Of a stretch of 28,218 bases of DNA, positions 14,046-19,331 are shown one piece after another; position 1 is the stretch's first letter; each line of letters begins with the position of its first letter. Source of the stretch: a virus; the IMG/VR virus record IMGVR_UViG_3300012936_000124, positions 1 through 28,218 of that record; one strand, written 5' to 3'. The notes beneath the pieces were generated by a model. The model had not been told where the DNA came from. It saw only the letters and a list, made by a program, of their open reading frames with translations, and did no database searches. The position numbers were made by a program, and so were the translations under genes.

Positions 14046-15275
14046 TCATACGGCAAAACTAAAGCGGACGTTAGACACTGGCCTCATGATTGGCATTTCA
14101 TAGGCCACCACATACGTTGTAGCATCATTTTGATGGTCGAATCCAGTGGTTTTGTCAGGCTCTCCATTGCGATAGCTTTGCTGCTCAAGGCATTCCGCCA
14201 CCCGTTTACATTTATTTGCGTTAATCCATACGCGCCCCTGCTCTAGCGCTGCGTTCATCGCATGCACTCTGTCCCTGACTGCTGGGTTGGTTTTTTTGAC
14301 CCTTATAGCAAAACCTGCCTGCTCCATTAAGGCTATGTCACTGAGTGCGGCGTTTGTCGTGTTGCGGTTACGGCCTGATGCGTCAGGATACATATAGATC
14401 ATATGATTGCTGTACCTGCTTAGAATAATGTCGATCATGTCCCTTGTGTCTTTCATATCCACAAGCTCATCCACCGCGTGGAGGCCGTCTTCTCGCTGCA
14501 CAAATATGGTCGCGGCTTGTTGCAGCACGTTGAAGTCACAGCCGATGAGCAAAGGCTCGCCATCCTGCACTTCTTCATCACTGCCATTTACGTCACGGTC
14601 ATAGCTGCTATAAACCGTTCCGCTGTTAAGGTTTACGAACTCCCCCTCAAGATAGGCCGCCAGCAAATTGGCTGAGTATGTTTCTTCAAGAGTGGCAATG
14701 TAGTTAGGCGGTAGGTGCTTTTGGTTTGACCTAGTAGGAGCTTTTATCAATTGATAGCTAGGGCTGGGGTTTTTCTTCCATTTCTCATAGACAAACCTAA
14801 ACCCCTCAGGCGTTGTACCTACTGACACACTGTTGATACCCACTGTTTTTTTCTGCCGGTTACGAGCAATTATTTGCTCCCATGCTCGCTTTGCTTTTTC
14901 CATAGGCAGGGTGTCAAGCTCGTCAATGAAGCTATCACTTACCTCGTAGCCTACAATACGGTCAGGGTTATCTAGCGTTCTGAAAATAATTCGCTTGCCG
15001 TTTACGTATACAGCATGCTCGCCACGGTTAATTTTGAAAGGTATACCGATACCGCTCAGTATCTCCTCAAACCGCGGATAACATATGTCGCTGACCAGCC
15101 CATAAGTTGGCATGTAATATGCAAGGTCTCGACCGTCACCAAAAACCTTCGCCAGCGTTCTCAGTATCAAGGCGTGTGTTTTGCCTGATCCAAAGCCCCC
15201 AACAAACGCGGGGAAGGGCGCATCAGAGTTTATGAATTCAGCTTGAGGCTTGCTGGCTGTTGTCTCCAGAATCAT
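14046..15275 (-). CDS. terL: Terminase large subunit
   Basis: 409 residues. Residues 25-33 (VGGFGSGKT) are the Walker A loop and 114-121 (DSFIDELD) the Walker B with the catalytic Glu119. The C-terminal nuclease part shows acidic residues in the expected places: GCDFNV (Asp247), YPDASG (Asp298) and FDHQNDA (Asp380/384). It overlaps the small subunit gene by 38 bases. The protein cuts concatemeric DNA and pumps it into the procapsid. The packaging strategy cannot be read from this sequence with confidence. Confidence 0.94.
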   Translation of the reverse strand: MILETTASKPQAEFINSDAPFPAFVGGFGSGKTHALILRTLAKVFGDGRDLAYYMPTYGLVSDICYPRFEEILSGIGIPFKINRGEHAVYVNGKRIIFRTLDNPDRIVGYEVSDSFIDELDTLPMEKAKRAWEQIIARNRQKKTVGINSVSVGTTPEGFRFVYEKWKKNPSPSYQLIKAPTRSNQKHLPPNYIATLEETYSANLLAAYLEGEFVNLNSGTVYSSYDRDVNGSDEEVQDGEPLLIGCDFNVLQQAATIFVQREDGLHAVDELVDMKDTRDMIDIILSRYSNHMIYMYPDASGRNRNTTNAALSDIALMEQAGFAIRVKKTNPAVRDRVHAMNAALEQGRVWINANKCKRVAECLEQQSYRNGEPDKTTGFDHQNDATTYVVAYEMPIMRPVSNVRFSFAV

Positions 15276-15603
15276 CCTCGACCACCCTAAACCCGCTTAT
15301 CTTGACTGTTCCCTCTAGCACTGATTGATCTTGTTGGCCAAGCCAGTTTTTGCCCAGCCATATCATCATTGAAGGGTTGCCCTCCATAGCTGCCTGATAT
15401 TGCCGGCGTCTAAGTGATATTTTGCCGCTGTGTCTTTTTTGTGCGAAACAGTCCGAAAAACCCTTACCACGTTCACGCTTACATATAGCGTTGAGGGTGT
15501 CGTAGTCGATGTTAAAGAACGCCGCTATCTCTTCTCCGGTGCATTGAATAGCGCATAGCTTTTCAAAGTCATCCCAGTCTATCTCCTTGAGTGGCCTTGC
15601 CAT
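15238..15603 (-). CDS. terS: Terminase small subunit
   Basis: 121 residues. N-terminal helix-turn-helix (FEKLCAIQCTGEEIAAFFNI, then DTLNAICKRE) and the segment GNPSMMIWLGKNWLGQ at about 75-90 are characteristic of phage small terminases. It overlaps the ParB-like gene upstream by 35 bases and terL downstream. It should recognise the packaging site and load the large subunit. Confidence 0.88.
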   Translation of the reverse strand: MARPLKEIDWDDFEKLCAIQCTGEEIAAFFNIDYDTLNAICKRERGKGFSDCFAQKRHSGKISLRRRQYQAAMEGNPSMMIWLGKNWLGQQDQSVLEGTVKISGFRVVEDDSGDNSQQASS

Positions 15604-16258
15604 TTACTGAGTCCTCATATTGCCTAGCAATCTTGATTTGGTTCTTTGTGACCCACGCCTTCTTGTACTCAGCATCCTCAAACAGCTTTGAGAATCCGGT
15701 GATATGCTTCAGCCTCAGTAACTCCTCTGGCTCCATGCCAAGCTCGTTACATATAGCTGCGTCCTCCCATCCGTTATCAAGCATTTTGAACACCATGTTG
15801 CTCATACCGGTTACTGAGTGTTTACCTCTGGCGCGATTATGCCTGACTGTGGAGGCCATGCGATCATTTATTGACTTATTCAGCACAACAATAGGCAGAC
15901 GTCCGTGATTGCGCTCACGAATATCTGCATTGTTTTTGCATGTGTAGTAACGGTGAAAGCCGTCAATAATCACGTATTTATTTAGCTCATCATCGTAAAT
16001 GGTGACCACTGGCTGTGTGTAGCCGTCATTTTTGATTGATGTGTAGAGCAGCTGCATTTCTTTGTTAGCGACACTGTTGGGGTTGTAGTCATTAGGGCTG
16101 ACCATTTCAATCGGAACCCAGTGAATCATGTCTACCGGCTGCTGCTGTGTTGGGCTGTTCTGATGCAGGTACATACGAGCTTCATGCAATGCCTGTACCG
16201 GATCGTCTGCTGCGTTTATGGCATCAACTAGCGATTTTAACTCTGCTTCCATCAGCAT
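15569..16258 (-). CDS. ParB/sulfiredoxin-fold protein, IbrB-like
   Basis: About 229 residues from the ATG at 16258, chosen because GGAG lies 8 bases upstream; a frame from 16303 also exists. The fold signature is clear: VIIDGFHRYYTCK and later TVRHNRARGKH (the ParB box II-like NRARG). A C-terminal helical part resembles a KorB/HTH-like segment (DAAICNELGMEPEELLRLK). It overlaps the PAPS-reductase-like gene by 35 bases. That pairing is the same as IbrA-IbrB in E. coli prophages, where they affect expression of eib genes. ParB-fold proteins can be CTPases, nucleases or DNA-modification partners; which applies here is unknown. Confidence 0.82.
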   Translation of the reverse strand: MLMEAELKSLVDAINAADDPVQALHEARMYLHQNSPTQQQPVDMIHWVPIEMVSPNDYNPNSVANKEMQLLYTSIKNDGYTQPVVTIYDDELNKYVIIDGFHRYYTCKNNADIRERNHGRLPIVVLNKSINDRMASTVRHNRARGKHSVTGMSNMVFKMLDNGWEDAAICNELGMEPEELLRLKHITGFSKLFEDAEYKKAWVTKNQIKIARQYEDSVNGKATQGDRLG

Positions 16259-17417
16259 TGAATTTGCTCCAATCAATATATGGGTTTGTGGCGTTGTTAT
16301 CATGAAGTACGCCTTTCCAGAATTTGAGAAGGTTGTTTATGACAGGACTGCGCTCCCAGTTGTCACACAACACTGATTCTACGTCATTAGCCAGTAACGC
16401 TTTGATGTGTATCTTGTGCATATGCTCTTTAAGCAGCATGTCTGCGAACTTAGCGTCCATCGCGGCAAACTTTTTGGTGAAATATGCCTGTTTGTCTGTG
16501 TCAGTGATGAGATTAGGCACAAGGTAATCGCGGTATTCTTTCCATGAATCAAACATGTACGGAAGCTCTTTGGGGCATTTTGTCATGTCATCCTTGAGGA
16601 CTGCTGCCGTATTAGTACCGTGCAACCGCTGAGTGATTCTGCCCCATGTCTGTGGCTCTATTTCATGAGCTATAAAAAGACTACGGACTGCTGTTTCATG
16701 ATTTAGGTTTGATACCCGCATCTCGCGTATGGGCGTACCGTATTGATAGTAGTAATCATAGATCTCACAGTACGGCCATTTATTGTCATGCAGAGCCTTC
16801 CAAACGTCTGTATATGACCAGTCGTAGATTGGATAAAACGTGTAGTGATTACGTCTTTCATTCAGGCGTTTGCCCCATGTGACTCCGCGGTACGTTTCCG
16901 CGCTAGTGAGCGCAGTGTAGCGAGTGGGACTTTCCTCGCACCGAACCCCTGCCAAGTATGCTGCCGGTTGGTCTGGATACCAATTCGCAAAAAAGGCTTC
17001 AAACATTTTGTGGAAACGGGTTTCATTGAACACGTTCTCCTTGATGCTTATTGGGTCTTTGGGTCGTATCCACTCTTCTTCTTTAATCTCATCCCAGCAG
17101 TCTAGATAAGGCATGTCGGGACTGGTGGCATTACTGATTAAAAACGGTATCTGCATCCATTTTGCGTCAACACGCTCGTCATACATCAGCCCCTTCACAT
17201 GATCTGCGACCATTTGCCATTCAATTTCTTGATCAAGCCATACAACCGGCAACGGCAAGCGCCCTTTCTCTTCAGCCACGATAAGAGCCAGCCGATAAAT
17301 AATGTCGCTGTCCTTACCCCCTGAGCAGGACACCACTACATTCGGGAAGTTGTCAAACACCCAGCGCATGCGATCAAGCGCTGCCTCAAATACGTTTTGC
17401 TTGGTATATATCTTCAC
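16224..17417 (-). CDS. PAPS-reductase-family ATP pyrophosphatase, IbrA/DUF3440-like
   Basis: 397 residues. PP-loop SGGKDS at 32-37 binds ATP; GVRCEESPTR at 157-166 matches the second PAPS-reductase/DndC-type motif, and FYPIYDWSYTDVW at 194-206 is also conserved in this family. The C-terminal half is the IbrA-type (DUF3440) extension. Cysteines at 31, 107, 160, 217, 281 and 351 could include cluster or sulfur-transfer ligands, which cannot be settled here. It begins in an ATGA overlap with the hydroxylase-like gene. Related enzymes adenylate or sulfurate substrates; a nucleic-acid substrate is an attractive guess given the ParB-fold partner. Confidence 0.88.
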   Translation of the reverse strand: MKIYTKQNVFEAALDRMRWVFDNFPNVVVSCSGGKDSDIIYRLALIVAEEKGRLPLPVVWLDQEIEWQMVADHVKGLMYDERVDAKWMQIPFLISNATSPDMPYLDCWDEIKEEEWIRPKDPISIKENVFNETRFHKMFEAFFANWYPDQPAAYLAGVRCEESPTRYTALTSAETYRGVTWGKRLNERRNHYTFYPIYDWSYTDVWKALHDNKWPYCEIYDYYYQYGTPIREMRVSNLNHETAVRSLFIAHEIEPQTWGRITQRLHGTNTAAVLKDDMTKCPKELPYMFDSWKEYRDYLVPNLITDTDKQAYFTKKFAAMDAKFADMLLKEHMHKIHIKALLANDVESVLCDNWERSPVINNLLKFWKGVLHDNNATNPYIDWSKFNADGSRVKIAS

Positions 17418-17947
17418 AGACCCGCCAAAAAATTAGTTGTCATTGCGTACAGCAGACATTGCTGCATCGTCTTCTCTGGTGGTAGCGGCTCATGACTATC
17501 TATTGACACCGCTACGTTCCATGCGTTTTTGTTGTCACCTCGCACCAAAACTTGATGCGGGCTGTGCGTGTCAAGGATATAAAACAGCCCTCTTTGAAGC
17601 ACCAACTCTTGTTTGTCCAGTCCTCTGCAGATGGTCTCTGCGTCTACTCGTATTTTCAGATGATGTGAGTATCTTGGATATTTAGGATCAATGTGCAGCG
17701 GTGTGCCGTTTCTTACCGCTATCCAGTGCGGGTCGTCTATGAGCTTTGCTTTGCCATCTTTATGCTTGGCTCTGTTCCAAGTGGTCAGGAGCTTATTTGA
17801 TTTGCTGAAGTTTTTTTTGTTCCAGACCTTCAGCAGGTCATTATTATCTGGTGACCTTACTGAGTCTGGCAGCTTTACGTGAGCAGCAAATACGGCTGGA
17901 TTGGTTCTTTGATCGCCCGTTATCTGATAGCTCCAAGGCACATCCAT
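17414..17947 (-). CDS. Double-stranded beta-helix (Asp/Asn-hydroxylase-like) protein
   Basis: 177 residues. Residues 83-99 (PLHIDPKYPRYSHHLKI) give an H-x-D pair (His85, Asp87), and LQRGLFYILDTHSPHQV at 117-133 gives a distal His (128 or 131), then NAWNVAVSID. This layout resembles the aspartyl/asparaginyl beta-hydroxylase branch of Fe(II)/2-oxoglutarate dioxygenases. The usual 2-oxoglutarate-binding Arg is not at the expected spot; Arg136 is the nearest candidate. It is 1 base from the glycosyltransferase-like stop and overlaps the PAPS-reductase-like gene by 4. Possible substrate: a DNA base or a protein residue. Recognition is by motif only. Confidence 0.6.
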   Translation of the reverse strand: MDVPWSYQITGDQRTNPAVFAAHVKLPDSVRSPDNNDLLKVWNKKNFSKSNKLLTTWNRAKHKDGKAKLIDDPHWIAVRNGTPLHIDPKYPRYSHHLKIRVDAETICRGLDKQELVLQRGLFYILDTHSPHQVLVRGDNKNAWNVAVSIDSHEPLPPEKTMQQCLLYAMTTNFLAGL

Positions 17948-17948
17948 T

Positions 17949-18506
17949 TTAGTCTGCCTTGTCTTGGAACGTCTTACTCATTCTTTTGCTGCTGCGGCGT
18001 GGGTCAATGACGCTTTTTTGCTGGCGATGGTCAACTAAATTAGGTACGTGTATCCAGTATTTCTCTCTGCGAGCCTTAAGGAAGTCGCAGACCATTTGAT
18101 CTGTGCCGTTAGGATGGTCCTCTTGATTTTGCTCCCACCAGCCATCAAAAAACTCAAGCATGAGGCGTGAATGACCTCTGGGGAAATAAACACACTGATT
18201 CATCAGAAAGTTGTTGTCCCAACGACTGCCAATCTCTAGGTCTTTTTTGCGCATCGAAAAAAATTGAATTACGGCATCAGGGCGCGTGTTTATCTCTTTG
18301 ATTGCCTTTTTGGTGAAGTCTGTGGTCAGCCAAATGTCATCTTCCAGATGAACGCAACGATCATCGCCAGCCATCTCTAGTGAGCGCTTGAAGGTGTCAA
18401 TGGCGCACCGCTTTTCATCCCAGCAGACACGCAGCTTAGGAATGTGTCTTTGTAAATACTCTACGCAATCAGCCCGCTCAGGAACTGCTTTGACTATCCA
18501 CTTCAT
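17949..18506 (-). CDS. GT-A-like glycosyltransferase
   Basis: 185 residues, shorter than many GT-A enzymes. The acidic motif VHLEDDIWLT at 52-61 (Glu55, Asp56, Asp57) fits a nucleotide-sugar/metal site. NGTDQMVCDFL near 133-143 and HVPNLVDHRQQKSVI near 153-167 match the late acceptor/base and PxLVxH regions of GT25 and related phage glycosyltransferases. Starts in an ATGA overlap and is followed 1 base later by the hydroxylase-like gene. It could glycosylate a modified base, or a capsid or tail protein. Confidence 0.65.
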   Translation of the reverse strand: MKWIVKAVPERADCVEYLQRHIPKLRVCWDEKRCAIDTFKRSLEMAGDDRCVHLEDDIWLTTDFTKKAIKEINTRPDAVIQFFSMRKKDLEIGSRWDNNFLMNQCVYFPRGHSRLMLEFFDGWWEQNQEDHPNGTDQMVCDFLKARREKYWIHVPNLVDHRQQKSVIDPRRSSKRMSKTFQDKAD

Positions 18507-18784
18507 AGGGACTCTGGCGCCTCTGCTCTGTTAATCAATATGGCATCTCTTGGGTTTTCGTCCATGACCCAATATTTGTAGCCATCAGCGTAAAAATAAA
18601 CGTAGGTCTTTCTAAAGAACTTTTCATACACCCCATGATATCGAATGCCCTCTGCCACTTGATAGAAAAGCTCTGGATCATCCCATGTATATATCTTGGT
18701 GTAGCTGTGAGGTATCTTTGGCATTGTCTTGGCGAACTTGTACTCTGCATCATAGAGCAGTTGCGCTATTTGATCTTTATCCAT
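18503..18784 (-). CDS. Small protein resembling the N-terminal part of phage methyltransferase-associated proteins
   Basis: 93 residues. The pattern HSYTKIYTWDD, then GYKYWVMDENPRDAILINRAE is one I recall at the start of, or beside, phage class I methyltransferases; here no methyltransferase domain follows, the frame stops and the glycosyltransferase-like gene begins in an ATGA overlap. It starts one base after the ParB-like stop. Either it is a free-standing version of that domain or the remnant of a lost fusion. No catalytic motif visible. Confidence 0.55.
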   Translation of the reverse strand: MDKDQIAQLLYDAEYKFAKTMPKIPHSYTKIYTWDDPELFYQVAEGIRYHGVYEKFFRKTYVYFYADGYKYWVMDENPRDAILINRAEAPESL

Positions 18785-18785
18785 G

Positions 18786-19331
18786 TTAGCTTCCTGATAT
18801 GGCGAACTCTTCTCCGCAATGCGGGCAAAGCACTTCCATTTCTTGTGGAGCGTTGCCCATCACATCCATGCGATCTGCGGTTTTTAATACGTCTGCATCT
18901 GTTATTTCTCTATTTGCTGCGGTTGGTTGAAGCTCAGGCTCAAAAGTGGCGAGCCTTGTTTCAATGTCAAAGCCCGTGAGGCTCATGTCAAAGTCAAAGT
19001 CTCGTAGTGAATCAAATTCAAGTTGCAGCAGCTCTACACTCCATGAGGACTTTTCAGCAAGCCGGTTGTCAGCGATAACATACGCTGCGCGGTCTTCTGG
19101 AGATATAGCGCCCGTCTCTACAACAGGAATAGTTTCTAGCCCCAAGAGCTTCGCGGCTTTAAGTCGACCATGCCCTGATATAACGGTGTTTGTGTCGTCG
19201 ACTAGTATTGGCGCTTTCCAGCCAAAGTGAGTGATGCTGTTCGCTATCTCTTGAACCTGCTCATCAGAATGCTGGCGAGGGTTTCTAGCATACTCCTTGA
19301 TATCCGACACGGGCATTTGGGTCAGTTGCAT
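18786..19331 (-). CDS. ParB-fold protein with a C-terminal CPxCG knuckle
   Basis: 181 residues. N-terminal ParB domain: DIKEYARNPRQHS, then VISGHGRLKAAKLLG at 50-64 and VIADNRLAEKSSW at 85-97. Such domains are often fused to phage DNA methyltransferases; here the protein ends soon after CPHCGEEF (169-176), a single zinc-knuckle half. It overlaps the gene upstream by 47 bases and leads the accessory cassette. A promoter with AAGTGTTGACA lies about 190 bases upstream. Likely binds or nicks DNA as part of the cassette, but activity is not shown. Start at 19331; the Met at residue 6 is an alternative. Confidence 0.8.
   Translation of the reverse strand: MQLTQMPVSDIKEYARNPRQHSDEQVQEIANSITHFGWKAPILVDDTNTVISGHGRLKAAKLLGLETIPVVETGAISPEDRAAYVIADNRLAEKSSWSVELLQLEFDSLRDFDFDMSLTGFDIETRLATFEPELQPTAANREITDADVLKTADRMDVMGNAPQEMEVLCPHCGEEFAISGS

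Follow-up and report, generated by a model that had tools for sequence, protein, structure and literature searches.

A larger phage gene cassette around an IbrA/IbrB-type pair beside the terminase genes: a candidate modular DNA-hypermodification system

ParB partners accompany DNA-modification enzymes in the Dnd and Dpd systems (PMC12839542, PMC10853773). In Dnd (DndA-E) the partner of the ParB-family protein is a PP-loop ATP pyrophosphatase, and in the 7-deazaguanine system Dpd (DpdA/DpdB) a ParB-like ATPase is paired with the base-modifying enzyme (PMC12839542). In the CmoA/CmoX/CmoY system (5-carboxymethylcytosine, phage S-B43) an ATP-dependent, AMP-forming enzyme joins an amine to the base, and CmoY has been demonstrated to be an ATP-dependent ligase coupling glycine to a phage DNA base; ParB folds are also present in CmoX contigs, where a ParBc domain is often found (PMC12783734). 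T4-type hydroxymethylcytosine glucosylation and TET/JBP systems with a glycosyltransferase combine an oxygenase or hydroxyl handle with sugar transfer. Another pair, IbrA/IbrB, is reported to activate prophage eib genes in E. coli (Sandt 2002, as cited in PMC10434257). Here we analysed the 28,218-base linear virus record IMGVR_UViG_3300012936_000124 (the window), in which a six-gene cassette at 15569-19331 contains a pair resembling IbrA/IbrB and runs into the terminase genes. We propose, with somewhat guarded confidence, that the cassette is a modular post-replicative DNA-hypermodification system acting before packaging. The cassette probably decorates phage DNA, thereby hiding it from bacterial defences.

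Independent searches with the glycosyltransferase (GT), the oxygenase-like protein OG177, the small domain and the PAPS-reductase-fold protein all converged on one cassette; the GT and OG177 queries each recovered it from IMG/VR, and at least 86 other, distinct phage sequences hold related cassettes. Of the 80 loci from the small-domain scan 65 are distinct; 63 of these hold the pyrophosphatase, 60 hold ParB1 and 58 hold ParB2, some of the contigs ending early. All 21 distinct OG177 loci carry the pyrophosphatase and 18 carry the GT. The association of these genes as a set is far beyond chance. The preliminary description, made from the sequence alone, had allowed for unrelated genes that do not occur together elsewhere; the cassette instead recurs across 87 distinct loci. 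In these loci, which form the closer clade, ParB2 is present in 86, ParB1 in 81 and the small domain in 71, ParB2 adjoins the pyrophosphatase in 84, and the two genes overlap in 81. The large terminase subunit (TerL) lies at most six genes downstream in 42 of the 59 loci long enough to judge. The genes of the slot are amino-methyltransferases (34 loci), GTs (33), GNATs (29), OG177 (20), S-adenosylmethionine (SAM) methyltransferases (19), GT2 enzymes (9) and AdoMet decarboxylases (4). Although presence counts are biased by the queries used to recruit the loci, at least one tailoring gene was found in 66 of the 67 loci recruited only via the pyrophosphatase or the small domain. The core of ParB1, small domain, pyrophosphatase and ParB2 is nearly constant, and the genes between are exchanged.

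Exchange of the slot genes was followed on a maximum-likelihood tree (quick search) of the 87 pyrophosphatases. The minimum number of changes was 14 for OG177 (20 carriers), 24 for the GT (33), 25 for the amino-methyltransferase (34) and 16 for the GNAT (29). The GT tracks OG177 on the tree (5.9 same vs 0.4 opposite over 9 independent pairs, median p 0.06); the association is not significant (p 0.12) in the subset without GT- or OG-recruited loci, and it is claimed here on the basis of the full set together with the tree. A further possibility, that OG177 and GNAT strictly exclude each other (0/20, p 9e-5), was dropped, as p rose to 0.26 without the GT- or OG177-recruited loci. Rare slot genes match AdoMet_dc (1.5e-10; 4.7e-14 in locus L006), Sacchrp_dh (1.5e-13), PS_Dcarbxylase (1.9e-40) and SET (1.2e-11), and further slot families are N6_N4-type methyltransferases (weak matches) and GT2/GT8. 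Nucleotide-sugar enzymes adjoin the GTs, namely a GalE-type epimerase between the GT and OG177 in L206 and L211 (1.3e-44) and a UDPG_MGDP_dh match (5e-20). Gene order is altered in some loci. L184 keeps ParB1, GT, OG177, PAPS and ParB2, with the small domain displaced downstream of TerL-sized and portal-sized genes, while L177, L187 and L194-L196 have a SAM methyltransferase, PAPS, the small domain with an amino-methyltransferase, and then ParB2.

The pyrophosphatase and ParB2 are, as judged by sequence comparison, of the IbrA/IbrB kind, a known but unexplained pair. The pyrophosphatase matches PAPS_reduct PF01507 (3e-12), DUF3440 PF11922 (6e-9) and phrog_2302 (9e-78), and ParB2 matches phrog_2159 (2e-74), with its two motifs near-invariant in 133 sequences; a PAPS-reductase-like ATP pyrophosphatase followed by a second ParB protein is what the preliminary description had named. 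Similar to IbrA/IbrB, the genes are adjacent, belong to the same two families with phrog_2302 and phrog_2159 as best PHROGs, and such pairs often lie near the terminase in phages. However, the pair here sits inside a larger cassette with ParB1, the small domain and a tailoring slot, whereas in distant phage pairs an SF2 helicase takes the place of the slot. At the sensitivity used, at least 215 of 50,697 phage records carry a pair of this type. Enzymes of clade 1 are seldom met in cellular genomes, with 6 among about 1186 sampled, 3 of these being seeds. In the distant pairs (L076-L118, Streptococcus phage PYS40, L034, and Flavobacterium phage 23T, L035) neither ParB1 nor the small domain is present; in many of them an SF2-helicase-like gene stands upstream instead (one cluster in 18 loci), and others have genes of about 290 or 250 amino acids. 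They possibly represent a different IbrAB-type system.

Phage PAPS genes are often annotated as auxiliary metabolic (sulfur) genes (e.g. PMC10434257). No cysteine column of the pyrophosphatase exceeds 74% in 160 homologues, the C-terminal catalytic CysH motif ECG[LMI]H occurs in none of the 160, and the cysteine desulfurase PF00266 is absent from 14 cassette-bearing records, although host IscS could substitute. In addition, profile comparison with the PDB places the protein nearest to FAD synthase and CysD, both adenylating enzymes. Therefore, the pyrophosphatase cannot be read as a sulfur enzyme, and sulfur chemistry of the DndC or CysH type, the former raised in the preliminary description, was rejected. 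A phosphorothioation-like system made of a DndC-like enzyme and a DndB-like ParB is accordingly very improbable: DndB is a ParB-family protein and the DndC profile does match the pyrophosphatase weakly (1.5e-6; PADLOC 9e-10), but at 27 bits against a cut-off of 290, and, unlike in Dnd, whose DndC has Fe-S cysteines and a sulfur-accepting cysteine dyad, conserved cysteines, a desulfurase and nearby DndD or DndE are all missing here. A PAPS-domain gene of Psychrobacter phage vB_PmaS_Y8A has been described as an auxiliary gene for a thioredoxin-dependent PAPS reductase (PMC10434257), an annotation that may be wrong if the gene belongs to this kind. In Pseudoalteromonas phage XCL1123 (L033:5595-6525), genes beside the PAPS gene carry the annotation 'ectoine synthase/ParB multidomain'.

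The cassette might also be explained as ordinary IbrA/IbrB regulators, or a sulfur-assimilation cysH gene, lying next to unrelated moron genes at a terminase hot spot. The occurrence of the PAPS-ParB2 pair elsewhere alone or with an SF2 helicase fits this explanation, as does the common view of phage PAPS genes as auxiliary metabolic (PMC10434257). However, the small domain and OG177 hardly occur outside the cassette, the CysH motif is missing from all 160 sequences, and the slot, far from holding random cargo, consists almost entirely of genes for group-transfer or supporting enzymes, making such an assembly of morons unlikely.

The remaining cassette proteins were characterised by profile searches and structure models. 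ParB1 matches PF02195 (1.3e-9) and phrog_620 (3e-50). Among its best PHROGs is also phrog_498, a family that joins this ParB domain to a DNA methyltransferase, and the DPPW methyltransferase of L004 matches the methylase half of phrog_498. The cysteines of the ParB1 knuckle are kept at 98% (C169) and 95% (C172) in 87 sequences. The small domain matches no Pfam or PHROG family above threshold. Its AlphaFold model is a confident alpha/beta fold (pLDDT 94) with no significant match in the PDB and one viral match in BFVD (A0A516LRX9, TM 0.88). The domain forms the N-terminus of class I SAM methyltransferases in L005, L009, L025, several other loci and gp156 of Microbacterium phage Hendrix, and in one case (L006) it stands next to a SET domain within one open reading frame (ORF). 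The GT matches phrog_854 'glucosyltransferase' (1e-7) and has two invariant residues, D57 in the EDD motif and D136; its profile gave no meaningful match in the PDB. OG177 belongs to no sequence family and has no Pfam match. It is modelled (pLDDT 93) as a double-stranded beta-helix with a 2-His-1-carboxylate triad, H85-x-D87...H131, which is invariant in 20 sequences. The nearest solved folds are the Fe/2-oxoglutarate (2OG) hydroxylases AspH, proline hydroxylases and a hydroxylase of nucleoside-antibiotic synthesis (best E 1.6e-3, probability 1.00, TM 0.38-0.48). On the basis of this model, the assignment as an Fe/2OG-type oxygenase-like fold holds up, and binding of the metal and 2OG is predicted. 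The ParB fold with a cysteine knuckle, the methyltransferase association of the small domain, the GT and the Fe/2OG hydroxylase-like fold thus agree with the preliminary description. Its view of the locus as a modification cassette is supported by co-inherited group-transfer enzymes lying with ParB folds beside the terminase; as the OG177 model is nearest, at weak E-values, to AspH and proline hydroxylases, nucleobase oxidation by a TET/JBP-type enzyme is not indicated.

All six cassette genes are present as minus-strand ORFs, and the terminase genes follow downstream on that strand (Table 1). The gaps between them are, in order, 1, -4, 1, -4 and -80 bases, so that the first five genes have junctions of 1 to 4 bases; ParB2 overlaps the gene of the small terminase subunit (TerS) by 35 bases, and TerS overlaps TerL by 38 bases. 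The preliminary description had given the six genes, their coordinates and their tight coupling ahead of the terminase correctly. The start codon of ParB2, whose gene overlaps that of the pyrophosphatase, is uncertain. The cassette is not distinct by base composition (G+C of the six genes 46.5% vs 47.6%). The window also contains a siphovirus-like head-tail block with genes for portal, head morphogenesis, major head, minor tail and tape-measure proteins.

Table 1. Genes of the cassette and the adjoining terminase genes in the window.
Feature	Coordinates	Strand	Characteristics
ParB1	18786..19331	-	ParB/Srx-fold, 181 amino acids; GHGR motif, C-terminal CPHC knuckle
Small domain (small93)	18503..18784	-	93 amino acids; motif AKTMP..PH.Y...YW.M...INR
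Glycosyltransferase-like (GT)	17949..18506	-	185 amino acids; EDD motif; phrog_854 glucosyltransferase
OG177	17414..17947	-	177 amino acids; predicted double-stranded beta-helix, HxD...H triad
PAPS-reductase-fold N-type ATP pyrophosphatase (IbrA/DUF3440-like)	16224..17417	-	397 amino acids; SGGKDS PP-loop, GTG start, no conserved cysteine
ParB2 (IbrB-like)	15569..16303	-	244 amino acids; DGFHR and HNRARGxH motifs
Terminase small subunit (TerS)	15238..15603	-	PHROGs/Pfam; conserved downstream neighbour, outside the modification machinery
Terminase large subunit (TerL)	14046..15275	-	Terminase_6N/6C; PHROGs/Pfam

Marker enzymes of the described routes were looked for in the cassette-bearing records. 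The thymidylate-synthase-family hydroxymethylase PF00303 is absent from 12 contigs and from the complete genomes of Hendrix, Rasputia, Athena and LiSara. The C5-methyltransferase PF00145 and the asparagine-synthetase-type PF00733 are absent from 14 records, complete Hendrix and Rasputia included, and the TGT-family PF01702 (DpdA) is absent from 14 records. The hydroxymethyl, CmoX/CmoY and Dpd routes, not found in these records, were dropped. The lack of a ThyA/hydroxymethylase or C5-methyltransferase match in the records searched argues for a post-replicative route. The cassette differs from the T4-type and TET/JBP systems in having no detected hydroxymethylase, an OG177 whose model is nearer to AspH and proline hydroxylases, and an added PP-loop enzyme and ParBs. 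It differs from CmoX/CmoY in having no C5-methyltransferase, no asparagine-synthetase-type ligase and an ATP-dependent enzyme with the PAPS-reductase fold, and from Dpd in the missing TGT-family enzyme.

In tRNA modification, TilS is an example of a PP-loop enzyme by which a base is first adenylated and then joined to an amine. We propose that in the phage cassette ParB1 and ParB2 would bring the machinery to phage DNA, where the pyrophosphatase would use ATP to adenylate a DNA group (a base carbonyl or similar), and the adenylated group would then be joined to a nucleophile, most probably a small molecule that carries an amine. The small domain would position or recognise the adduct for the tailoring enzyme, and the slot enzymes would finish it. 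In the phage of the window, OG177 would hydroxylate the adduct and the GT would then add a sugar, whereas in relatives GNAT, methyltransferases or decarboxylases would act instead. The product would shield the DNA from host nucleases, and the terminase would package it afterwards. We infer DNA as the substrate, as did the preliminary description, and likewise the adenylation, the involvement of an amine, the sequence of the steps and a role against restriction. DNA is suggested as the target by the two ParB folds, the kinship of ParB1 with methyltransferase fusions, the ParB precedents in Dnd, Dpd and CmoX contigs, and the place beside the terminase. The decarboxylases, acetyltransferases, amino-methyltransferases, SET domain and saccharopine-dehydrogenase relative point to an adduct that is an amine or resembles an amino acid. 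An Amidoligase_2 gene (PF12224) and a gamma-glutamyl cyclotransferase-like gene (PF06094) flank the cassette on either side, usually on the opposite strand, at L004:1247-2702 and L020:6831-8331 (PF12224 matches of 2.5e-34 and 3e-36) and in 12 of 86 distinct loci of the closer clade; these genes could act on an amine adduct.

Substrates other than DNA have to be weighed against the same genes. PP-loop ATP pyrophosphatases such as TilS, ThiI and MnmA are classic tRNA modifiers, tRNA modification also uses GNATs, methyltransferases and GTs, and tRNA genes lie just upstream of the cassette in Hendrix and Rasputia, so that the cassette might modify RNA, for example host or phage tRNA, and thereby escape RNA-directed defence or change decoding. 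However, the pyrophosphatase is framed by two ParB folds, ParB1 corresponds to the ParB half of DNA-methyltransferase fusions, and most loci place the cassette with the terminase, not with tRNA genes; an RNA substrate thus appears improbable. Still less probable is a role in producing a protein or altering one, whether of the capsid, of the tail or a host target, by lysine-type hydroxylation, glycosylation, methylation or acetylation. The AspH-like fold, SET, GNAT and GTs are also of protein-modifying types and structural genes lie downstream, but no conserved gene for a protein substrate is found in the cassette, the slot enzymes vary often while the terminase and structural genes are of unrelated types, and the PP-loop ATPase and two ParB folds would have no obvious role.

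Several points weigh against a DNA-hypermodification system. The literature found reports no modified nucleoside for any phage with the cassette, and proteins with a ParB fold may equally act as regulators, CTPases or nucleases. The amine is a guess drawn from the slot chemistry, in which AdoMet decarboxylase occurs in only 4 distinct loci and saccharopine dehydrogenase and PS-decarboxylase in one each. In addition, the GNAT and N6_N4_Mtase matches are below the Pfam cut-offs, the family match of the GT is modest, and the oxygenase fold match of OG177 is weak by E-value. More tentatively, the DNA-hypermodification reading may be extended to a lysidine-synthetase-like route on DNA, in which an adenylated base or backbone group would be coupled to an amino acid or polyamine and the adduct variously acetylated, methylated, decarboxylated, hydroxylated or glycosylated by different phages. 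The outcome would be a combinatorial chemistry of DNA side chains built on one ATP/ParB core. IbrA/IbrB would then be its minimal and widely distributed version, and many viral 'cysH' auxiliary genes would in fact serve DNA modification. We regard this extension as possible but rather doubtful.

Related cassettes are found in cultured phages and in a prophage. The tblastn searches of OG177 and of the small domain against cultured phages gave no match, and the exact set of the window is thus without a cultured member. The Microbacterium phages Hendrix and Rasputia carry related cassettes at the ends of their records. In Hendrix the order is GT, GT, small domain/methyltransferase, N-acyltransferase and pyrophosphatase, and the record starts with ParB2, two further ParBs, a probable TerS and TerL. 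The cultured Mycobacterium phage Athena (L036, 1-5236) has a minimal form comprising ParB, two small genes, PAPS and ParB, then the terminase. A genome-contig scan with the GT gave three loci in metagenome-assembled genomes (MAGs). The richest cassette seen is that of an integrated Treponema MAG prophage (L225:2494-12280), with the small domain, ParB1, UDP-sugar dehydrogenase, GT8, SET, amino-methyltransferase, GT, PS-decarboxylase, ParB1, pyrophosphatase, ParB2 and probable TerS/TerL in this order.

A literature search revealed no description of the larger cassette, although an earlier mention of the PAPS-ParB association may exist in Iyer et al. 2013 (NAR, a computational survey of DNA base modification systems). 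What appears to be new is the larger cassette around the already-known IbrA/IbrB pair, which we would place among the phage DNA hypermodification cassettes, with DNA as the putative substrate. If this is true, the widespread phage PAPS-reductase/ParB (IbrA/IbrB) pair, which viromics studies usually assign to sulfur auxiliary metabolism (e.g. PMC10434257), would gain a function. There would also be a further route to DNA hypermodification, one that does without hydroxymethylated or carboxymethylated bases. The two cultured Microbacterium phages, Hendrix and Rasputia, make the proposal testable, and the exchangeable slot would, if the proposal is true, represent a natural library of DNA side-chain chemistry.

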